A stretch of DNA of 64,000 bases, taken from Thermococcus sp. AM4. GTDB taxonomy: Archaea > Methanobacteriota_B > Thermococci > Thermococcales > Thermococcaceae. Under the pieces are notes generated by a model. The model saw nothing but the letters and a program-made list of their open reading frames with translations, searched no databases and was not told the origin of the DNA. The stretch lies in NCBI RefSeq assembly GCF_000151205.2, contig NC_016051.1, positions 434,001 through 498,000 on the forward strand, given 5' to 3'. Of this stretch, positions 38,210 to 41,568 are shown one piece after another (within the stretch, counting starts at the first letter, position 1; every line of letters starts with the position of its first letter). Both the position numbers and the translations under genes were made by a program.

Positions 38210-39390
38210 CACTTGAGCCTCACTTCTACGCTTGGGTCTTTGAAGACTTTCACCTCTGAGAGCTCTTCCCCAGCGTTGAAGAGCCTTTCAACAGTGGACA
38301 GGACCTCAGACTCATCGAGCTCAGCAATACCGATGCCTTCTGAAAGACCTACCACCAGAAATACTGGCTTCCTATTCTTTGAGACAACGTGCTTTATCCT
38401 AACAACTTTCTTCCCGTCTTCCTCGCGTTCCTCTATTTCGTCGTACTCCTCTTCGGTGTACTCGTCGAGGAGCTGAATCCTGTCCTTAAATGTCTGGTAG
38501 GGTTTGTTATTGTAGACTCCGAGAACGAGGAGCCTTGGCCTGAGGTCTTCCTCTCTGCCCTTGATGGAGCGCTTTAAACTCAGCAATCCCTTGATAAGTT
38601 GCTTTACGCGCTTTTTCTTTTCTTCGGGTGGTAGTGAGTACCTAATGTGGACTAGTTTGTTGTTGATTTTCTCAAAGGACTCAAGCTTGACCTTATCACT
38701 CTGGACGAGCTCCCTCGTCTCTTTTTTGTGTTTTAGGAGGAACTTAACTCTGCCATTCTCATTGACAACGTCCTCGATTTTCATCTTTATCTCCTTGTTC
38801 TGCTCGTCTCTCCCGAGGGTAATCTCATTGCCGAGCGTTACAAAGACGTCAATGGAACCAACCTCATCAATGTCAACGACGAGTGAATACAGGTAAAACG
38901 TCTCGTGCTCCTCTGCTGTAAAGGGATTGGGCTTCATTTCACCGTAAACCTTCCTCATCCTATTGGCCATGCCGAGGTTGGCGTTGAAAAGGGCGTCGTA
39001 GTTGAAGGGCGTCATCGAAACTGCATGGCTTAACTTCGCCGGAGCGCTCCTGAAGTTCTGGGGGGTTGTCGATGTTATCAAATATCCAAACAAATCGAAC
39101 TCCGGATAGAGGAGTATCTCTCCCGTGAGAAGAAGGTCGGTCGCAGGCTGTATCACGGTGTTATCGCCGCTTCCGGCACGGTGAAGCTTCTCACCTTCAG
39201 CGACATTCCAGAGTCCAAGCTTCCTCCCAGTCTCAAGGAGGCTGTATCTCAGCGCATACCTGCTCACCAGCGTATACTGCCTCCCATCCCAGCGGGTTAT
39301 CTTCTTCAGCTCCTGATAGTTCCCGCTCCCCTGGTCATAGTTGAGGGAGCTTCCGTAAAAGACCACGTCCATAACCAAAAACCTGCCCAT
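38209..39390 (-). CDS. cas7: Cas7 (Cst2/DevR family) Cascade backbone
   Basis: 393 residues. Family marks: VVFYGSSLNYDQGSGNYQEL, ITRWDGRQYTLVSRYALRYS, PEFDLFGYLITS and SHAVSMTPFNYDALFNANLG, the last typical of DevR/Cst2 proteins that coat the crRNA. A charged segment (RLLVLGVYNNKPYQTFKDR, EYTEEEYDEIEEREEDGKK) is extended. GGAGGTGAAAGCTG precedes ATG 39390, whose bases overlap the stop of the small gene (TGATG). Confidence 0.94.
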   Translation of the reverse strand: MGRFLVMDVVFYGSSLNYDQGSGNYQELKKITRWDGRQYTLVSRYALRYSLLETGRKLGLWNVAEGEKLHRAGSGDNTVIQPATDLLLTGEILLYPEFDLFGYLITSTTPQNFRSAPAKLSHAVSMTPFNYDALFNANLGMANRMRKVYGEMKPNPFTAEEHETFYLYSLVVDIDEVGSIDVFVTLGNEITLGRDEQNKEIKMKIEDVVNENGRVKFLLKHKKETRELVQSDKVKLESFEKINNKLVHIRYSLPPEEKKKRVKQLIKGLLSLKRSIKGREEDLRPRLLVLGVYNNKPYQTFKDRIQLLDEYTEEEYDEIEEREEDGKKVVRIKHVVSKNRKPVFLVVGLSEGIGIAELDESEVLSTVERLFNAGEELSEVKVFKDPSVEVRLK

Positions 39391-39692
39391 CAGCTTTCAC
39401 CTCCTGCCATTATCCCGAGTATTACGGAGTAGGCAACTTTCTCAAAGTCAGACTCCGAAGAAGGAAAGACCTCCATAAGCACGGAAGCAAGTTCTTTAGC
39501 CTTGCGGTTGTCCTTGGAATGGGCGTTAAGAGCCCTCAGGAGAATCCACAGGAATCTGTCTTGGTCGTTTGCCTTGACGGCGTTCAGCAGGTCAAAGACG
39601 AGCTTCTGCCGGTAGTTATCGGAGCCAGCCTTGCCAAGAACTTCTTTACTTAGACTTTTAATCCTCCACAGATTCCTGTCCTGAACCACCAT
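39390..39692 (-). CDS. Putative stand-alone Cas11-like small subunit (paralogue of the Cas8 C-terminus)
   Basis: 100 residues from ATG 39692 (GGCGGTGGAG before it), overlapping the cas8 stop by 35 nt and sharing TGATG with cas7. The body LVFDLLNAVKANDQDRFLWI, LLRALNAHS, then VFPSSESDFEKVAYSVILGI with MAGG aligns along its length with the last about 75 residues of Cas8: [30 protein letters not shown], then [20 protein letters not shown] with VGGG. All-helical, as Cas11 small subunits are. I infer a Cascade small subunit; a frame-upstream TTG/GTG extension to 39716 is possible but has no ribosome site. Confidence 0.72.
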   Translation of the reverse strand: MVVQDRNLWRIKSLSKEVLGKAGSDNYRQKLVFDLLNAVKANDQDRFLWILLRALNAHSKDNRKAKELASVLMEVFPSSESDFEKVAYSVILGIMAGGES

Positions 39693-41568
39693 CTCCACCG
39701 CCTCCAACAAGACCAACTATAAGAGCGAGTGCAAAGTCTTCCCAGGAGGAATCGTTGTTCAAAACGCGCCTGAAGAGGTAAGAGTTGATTACGGCCACTT
39801 TCTCTTTGCTTTTAACCTGGAGGAGCGCCTTAAGGAGTGTATTGACAAAGGCGTTTCTGTTGTGCTTTCGCAATGCTGAAAACAGAGTGTAGATTAGATT
39901 TCTTCCACCGATTTCGGGCGAAAGTTCCCTAATTACCACAGCAACGCTGTTCATGTCTCTGTAGAAGTCCTTAACCTCAACTACCGCTCTCTTTGGACGG
40001 TCAAAGAATGCCTGACTAAACAGGGCTGGGTTCTCCTCACTTTTCAACTTTGCATCAACGGCCAGAGCGTAGAGGCTTGACGTCAAAAGGGGTTTCTTTC
40101 CAATGCTGAGGTAAAATTTCGAATGTCTTAAAACTACTGGGAACATTGGCCTCCGGGAGATAAACAATTCAAGCAACCAAGCCTTTTTGAAGTCGCTCCA
40201 CTTCAATTTGTCTTTAGGTTTGTTTTTGGACTTATCCAGAATATCAATTGGTATTTGAGTATTAAGTGCCTCCCTAATCTGGTCGTCGAGGATTATTGAG
40301 GCATGAAGCTTGGGGATACCGATGTATTCAACATCCACAAGATTTTGTTGATTAATTCCTGCAAAGTTAATCAAATACATATTTTCAAGACTCCATTGAG
40401 CTTTTTCTTCTATAACAGCGTCAATAACTGCCTGCCATGTTATCCTAAACATAGATTGTTTTTCCTTAGTTTGAGCTACGAGAACTTTCAGACGCTTATT
40501 TACATGGTATGTGAACTCCAAGGTGCTCCCGTAGAAGAATACATTGCCAACGCCACTAACGAATGTGAATGCATTGAGAAAGTTCAGAAGGTATATAAAC
40601 AGATGCGGGACTTGGCGTAGCAATGGTTCAACTTTAATAGGGGTATAATGAACGTTTGGAAACTCCGAGTCAGAAGGCAGGAATTTACTCAGAGTTTTGT
40701 CAATTTTCTGAAGATACTCTGTGTATTGGACATTTCCTTCGATGATATTTCTAAAGTCCTCAAGCTGTTCGAATATCCTCCTGCTATTGTTAAAGAACAT
40801 AAAGTTCTTGTAGAAGCCACTATCAATCGGTATTCTGAAGTAGCGGGATTTTTGTTTCAGCTCATTCAAGGCTACTGACCCGTATGGAATTTCCCTTAGA
40901 GCGAACCATTGAGACATTAGATATTCCCTAAGATTAGCATGAACTTCAAGAGCATACTGAAGTTTCTTACTGCATTTTTCTGGTAATGCTTCCAATAACT
41001 CAGGATTTTTAAGTTGCTCAATCTGTTCAAGTTCAAGTTTGTGAGTATTGTTCTCGCACGGGACCTTTCTAAGCTTTAATGCTGACTTAAGAGCATTTTG
41101 ACAATCCTTATCACATGCAACTTCTACCAGCAGTTTCTCCCTCGTTTCAATGTATCCCAAATAAGTCTCATCATTGAATGCTGGTTTGGGATTGCCATTC
41201 CTATCTAAGACATCCTTTTTGTGCATCTGTTTGAGTTTATTCTTAATCCATTTATCCTTAAAAATCCCGGTTATGAATTTCCACCACACCAGTTCGAGCA
41301 ATTTATGTTTGTCACCTTGGAAGTTCTCGATTTCTTCTGTAGCAACCGCTATTACACTTTTATCTACACTTTTATCATGTTCGCTTGCAAGATTGTAGAA
41401 ATAAGCTAACGGAAAATACCCATAATAAACCTTCTCCGGCTCATTCTTGATGCGTCTCTGAAGTTCCTCTAAATCCCAGCCATAGACTTCCTCCATCAGA
41501 TTAACAAATCCCAAAATGCCTGCATCTATGAACCAGTTCCCCGTGAACCTAAGTTCTTCTCCTTCCAT
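39658..41568 (-). CDS. cas8: Cas8 (Cst1-type) large Cascade subunit
   Basis: 636 residues. Opening [20 protein letters not shown] is typical of Cst1/Cas8 (a WxIDAG motif). A cysteine group (ACDKDC around residue 146, then PCENN and EKCSKK) may bind a metal as in CxxC-containing Cst1 proteins. The C-terminal 75 residues form a helical small-subunit-like module, followed by a Gly-rich tail [15 protein letters not shown] that spans the overlap with the next gene. Needed for PAM recognition and Cas3 recruitment in type I-B. ATG 41568 follows GGTGAGGGTTG and overlaps cas6 by 20 nt. Compared with its neighbours the gene is rich in A/T. Confidence 0.9.

Follow-up and report, generated by a model that had tools for sequence, protein, structure and literature searches.

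A 100-residue open reading frame in the type I-B CRISPR operon of Thermococcus sp. AM4 most probably codes for Cas11b, the free small subunit of a Tneap/Cst2-type Cascade, and replaces the internal translation of cas8; we put the probability of this reading at roughly 80%. It builds on the homology of the protein to the C-terminal domain (CTD) of Cas8, its operon position, its conservation, a single split of the two copies and the ribosome sites. Sequence comparison shows free Cas11 and the fused CTD to be paralogs of ancient origin.

The stretch of DNA analyzed here (the window, 64,000 nt) carries a type I-B (Tneap) operon on its minus strand. The operon consists of cas6 (41549-42286; TIGR01877, 8e-48), cas8b for the large subunit of 636 aa (39658-41568; PADLOC PDLC01542, E 0), the small gene (39390-39692), cas7 (38209-39390; Cst2/DevR, TIGR02585, 4.7e-82), cas5t (37376-38212; TIGR01895, 4e-30), cas3 for the helicase/HD nuclease (34770-37385; TIGR01587, 7e-65), cas4 and a cas1-like ORF, the last one assigned by reading the sequence. 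Repeat search and reading placed a CRISPR array with 19 copies of the repeat CTTTCAATTCTCCTCGAGTCTTATTGCAAC near the operon on the plus strand (30541-31784), in which one repeat end reads CTAGAG in three repeats and CTCGAG in the others. The same repeat also forms other arrays across the genome, with 87 repeats genome-wide. In a scan of seven proteins, the best matches of Cas7, Cas5 and Cas6 were I-B/Tneap or general families, and the type I-E proteins Cse1 and Cse2 were unmatched. Cas8 had no NCBIfam match up to an E-value of 1, the Cst1-type Cas8 profile included, but does match the PADLOC Cas8b profile PDLC01542.

The small gene begins with its own ATG, 8 nt downstream of a GGAGG ribosome site (39701-39705, minus strand) that is coded within the glycine-rich tail of cas8, and its start overlaps the end of cas8 by 35 nt (39658-39692). 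Coordinates, start codon, ribosome site and overlap are all as given in the original prediction. The protein matches the PADLOC-DB profile PDLC01541 (Cas11b, CAS-I-B, effector_SS) over positions 2-98 of 98 (E 4.3e-55, 182 bits) and so belongs to a family that is already catalogued. The dN/dS values of cas11 in nine Thermococcaceae (0.05-0.22) show purifying selection. Neither Cas11 nor Cas8 gave a meaningful match in Pfam or NCBIfam, and sequence searches of the PDB returned no true relative.

The small protein is homologous to the Cas8 CTD, which comprises about residues 542-624 (39694-39942, minus strand). Direct comparison by BLASTP gave 27% identity over 83 residues (E 5e-4), and profile-profile comparison raised the significance to E 4.7e-9 for Thermococcaceae rows only and to E 1.9e-11 (score 65.6) in hhalign with wider rows, far above column-permuted controls. 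When the Cas11 profile was run against the whole of Cas8, the CTD was the best match (E 1.4e-7). Library profiles cross-match in the same way: PDLC01541 also hits Cas8 residues 555-625 (E 7e-6), and the small protein hits the C-termini of the Cas8b profiles PDLC02050 (3.7e-9) and PDLC01542 (2e-4). The alignment proposed at the outset therefore exists and lies in the CTD, but it spans about 82-93 residues and not about 75, and it does not cover the very last residues of Cas8, about a dozen of which follow. The pairing of MAGG with VGGG at its end is weak evidence for homology, because in both genes the glycine codons spell the GGAGG site of the next gene. At aligned positions in the Thermococcaceae, the CTD keeps R...R..F.N where Cas11 keeps K..D...F.W; the two copies are free to diverge independently, and have diverged.

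Structure prediction is consistent with this relationship. AlphaFold2 modeled Cas11 as a confident five-helix bundle (mean pLDDT 92.3; helices 5-21, 25-40, 44-58, 63-75 and 80-97). The Cas8 model is weaker (pLDDT 76), with values of mostly 80-94 in the CTD, where five helices are predicted in the same order (519-553, 556-567, 571-582, 588-603 and 609-623). Through the sequence alignment, the modeled helices of the two proteins pair one to one. Foldseek searches of the PDB yielded no match with an E-value under 0.001 for the Cas11 model, the weak Csm/Cmr5 entries listed having no evidential value, and only noise for the Cas8 model.

In most Thermococcaceae loci with both copies, the last glycines of Cas8 encode the GGAGG serving cas11, and the last glycines of Cas11 encode the GGAGG serving cas7, which in the window is AGGAGGTGA, 6 nt before the cas7 ATG. 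The GG ending common to both proteins is thus, at least in part, a signal for translation. The large majority of two-copy loci have a ribosome site in front of cas11; in Caldiserica, cas8 and cas11 do not overlap and Cas8 has no glycine tail. The glycine-rich C-termini of Cas8 and Cas11 (loci L026-L038) offer a case of a protein tail and a translation signal under joint constraint.

To follow the gene beyond the window, we searched 115 genomes of the phylum, where Cas11b occurs in 13 and the window-type Cas8 in 14. The gene is thus present in 13 of the 14 Thermococcaceae genomes with this Cas8; in the exception (G067) the locus runs off its contig. A wider scan, with one genome per species and 84,980 species, found the window-type Cas8 also in Archaeoglobaceae, DHVE2, Thermoplasmatota, Aenigmatarchaeota, Caldiserica and Aquificota, among others. 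All loci of sufficient length have, besides the Cas8 CTD, a separate Cas11 ORF immediately after cas8, with an overlap or a gap of up to about 20 nt. Sampled Cas8b loci of Archaeoglobi and methanogens are without a separate Cas11 gene. Matches of PDLC02050 in Thermococci and Archaeoglobi were considered as new Cas8 genes and rejected, being mostly Cas11 or CTD regions instead. Neither Cas11 nor either type of Cas8 had a relative in viral contigs.

Two side observations concern the family at large. One genome (G244, contig C8:159578-159853; locus L104, 1492-1791) has a 99-aa Cas11b-like ORF (E 1.8e-21) with no recognized cas gene seen within 1.5 kb on either side, a remnant or an orphan. Furthermore, Cas8 itself is a mosaic: the proteins of G039, G061 and G084 have the first about 58 and the last about 250 residues in common with those of G000, G108, G022 and others, and the middle region takes at least two very different forms inside the one family, which looks as if a middle domain, possibly PAM-reading, had been swapped.

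A tblastn search of a plasmid collection with the small protein as query led to relatives with a single CTD: it found the C-terminus of Listeria Cas8b1 (31% identity, E 8e-3). In Listeria, Acetoanaerobium and Lactobacillus, Cas8b1 has a single CTD and cas7 follows directly after cas8; these related Bacillota systems have no separate cas11 gene. Three records met in the public collections (NZ_CP030101.1, NZ_CP154629.1 and OR846720.1) probably have labeling problems: two of them, of 2.9 and 2.6 Mb, are labeled as plasmids and resemble chromosomes, and an unverified "Listeria phage" contig bears a Listeria-type cas8 (96% identical).

To trace the origin of the two copies, a tree was calculated from 16 Cas11, 16 Cas8 CTD and 3 single-CTD sequences over 119 columns. 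All 16 Cas11 sequences form one clade (98/95) apart from every CTD, and the two-copy CTDs cluster with moderate support (77/92). This indicates that the copies separated once, long ago, and then travelled together in the operon. A tandem duplication of the small-subunit module, as first suggested, does not fit as a local or a recent event, since the Cas11/CTD split predates the spread over several archaeal and bacterial phyla. Because the tree is unrooted, both a gain in the two-copy lineage and a loss in the Bacillota lineage are compatible with it; the archaeal Cas8b of the PDLC01278 type was tried as an outgroup and rejected, as its CTD could not be aligned. At somewhat less than an even chance, we tentatively prefer a history in which one old duplication gave an internally translated small subunit its own gene, internal translation then disappeared and the fused and free copies specialized, leaving a belly of two paralogs, with one Cas8 CTD as end unit and several Cas11. 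A rather less likely history makes the separate gene the older state: the copies would have split ahead of the single-CTD lineage, and cas11 would subsequently have been lost from Listeria-type systems, which adopted internal translation. The separation of Cas11 from all CTDs, the single-CTD ones included, would fit a split older than both groups. Against it, the sampled Archaeoglobi and methanogen loci favor a gain, and I-B systems in the literature more commonly have a Cas8 and no Cas11 gene (PMC13199841, PMC11899642).

The preferred history, in which a separate gene took over from internal translation, can be compared with the internal starts of cas8 itself. Four single-CTD genes were available, and in three of them a ribosome site and start lie ahead of the CTD: AAGGAG 9 nt before an in-frame ATG in Listeria (predicted product 107 aa), AAAGGAG 8 nt before TTG in Acetoanaerobium (104 aa), and GGGAGGT 8 nt before ATG in Lysinibacillus, whose gene is frame-broken. 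The fourth, from Lactobacillus, has only a weak internal site. On the Lysinibacillus plasmid pMHQ (L083), cas8b1 is split over several frames, with cas7 and cas5 still adjoining. Shuffling of synonymous codons gave a site with a 6-nt match by chance in about 6-21% of cases per single-CTD gene, so that each internal site is weak taken alone. Among 22 two-copy cas8 genes, by comparison, only that of G053 showed a Shine-Dalgarno-supported internal start (6-nt match, same zone), and its spacing is at the limit of what was allowed; the window gene has none. This contrast of 3/4 with 1/22, at the level of sequence motifs, is suggestive, not proof. Archaea can initiate translation without a Shine-Dalgarno site, and a missing site therefore does not disprove internal initiation.

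Both routes might run in one cell, Met539 of cas8 yielding a free CTD of about 98 aa next to Cas11 and hence two different free small subunits. Such a product would have the size of Cas11, the methionine near the CTD start is invariant in an alignment of 13 Thermococcaceae CTDs, and in Haloferax Cas11b is made by internal translation of cas8b (PMC11899642). We nevertheless consider this improbable, given that 21 of the 22 two-copy cas8 genes have no suitably spaced Shine-Dalgarno site and that several other two-copy relatives lack the methionine. The notion that a single Cascade has small subunits of two kinds holds only for a fused CTD plus a free Cas11, as in type I-E; two free kinds are not supported.

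It is more improbable still that the protein is an accessory or regulatory passenger of the operon and not a Cascade subunit: its membership in Cascade is something we infer, and the Cas11-like ORF of L104 stands outside any visible cas operon, but the strict linkage to cas8, the family profile and the homology to the Cas8 CTD argue for a subunit. A chance likeness of small helical bundles, conceivable for short helical proteins with only 27% pairwise identity, was rejected by column permutation (maximum score 22.1 in 200 controls versus 65.6 for the true pair) and by the cross-matches of independent library profiles. Taken together, these results support the proposal that a Cas11-family protein with homology to the Cas8 CTD has a gene of its own in place of the usual internal translation.

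For the free small subunit, we infer assembly into Cascade, copy number, strand holding and the loss of internal translation. Translation of Cas11 would use the gene's own start, with a probable coupling to the end of cas8 via the ribosome site in the glycine-rich tail, and the separate gene would do the job of internal cas8 translation in the related single-CTD systems. Several Cas11 copies are predicted on the Cas7 backbone, lined up with the homologous C-terminal helical domain of the one Cas8 in a belly that would hold the displaced DNA strand. By analogy with the I-B Cascade of Synechocystis, in which such a belly is made up of the Cas8b CTD and three identical Cas11b (PMC11096372), free Cas11 would occupy the repeated positions and the CTD the Cas8 end.

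In the literature, a separate Cas11 gene is stated for types I-A and I-E only (PMC13199841, PMC11899642), Cas11b of Thermotoga I-B is probably internally translated (PMC13199841), and operons with a long Cas8 C-terminus are noted to lack the small subunit (Makarova et al., 2011; PMC3150331). The gene family is catalogued in PADLOC-DB, yet a separate Cas11 gene contradicts this open literature on I-B, in which Cas11 arises solely from within cas8; subscription papers on classification or on Thermococcales Cascades may describe it. The PADLOC-DB family PDLC01541 is that of the window protein, with no testable feature that differs, and its entry is silent on kinship with the Cas8 CTD; other profiles for small subunits of I-B in the database are PDLC01190 ("Small subunit of some of I-B systems") and PDLC01193.

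The family would represent another solution within I-B to making the small subunit, a separate gene versus a start inside cas8, and since the copies are still recognizably akin, internal translation and gene duplication can be compared directly as two routes to large and small subunits. Heterologous expression of such thermophilic I-B systems would need the small gene to be cloned, and they offer a thermostable Cascade that permits mutation of the free small subunit separately from the fused one. With the internally translated I-B systems (Synechocystis, Haloferax, probably Thermotoga and, by sequence, the Listeria-type Cas8b1), the window system shares the I-B backbone genes and a free Cas11 close in size to the helical Cas8 CTD that it matches. 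It differs in that their free Cas11 is identical to the CTD and arises from within cas8, whereas that of the window is a paralog that has diverged and has a separate gene. In type I-E, Cas8e has its own helical CTD and Cse2/Cas11 is coded separately; these two are not known to share clear sequence kinship. The combination of a fused helical domain and a separate small subunit is thus alike in both, but the window pair are recognizable paralogs in an operon that is I-B by its Cst2, Cas5t and Cas6.
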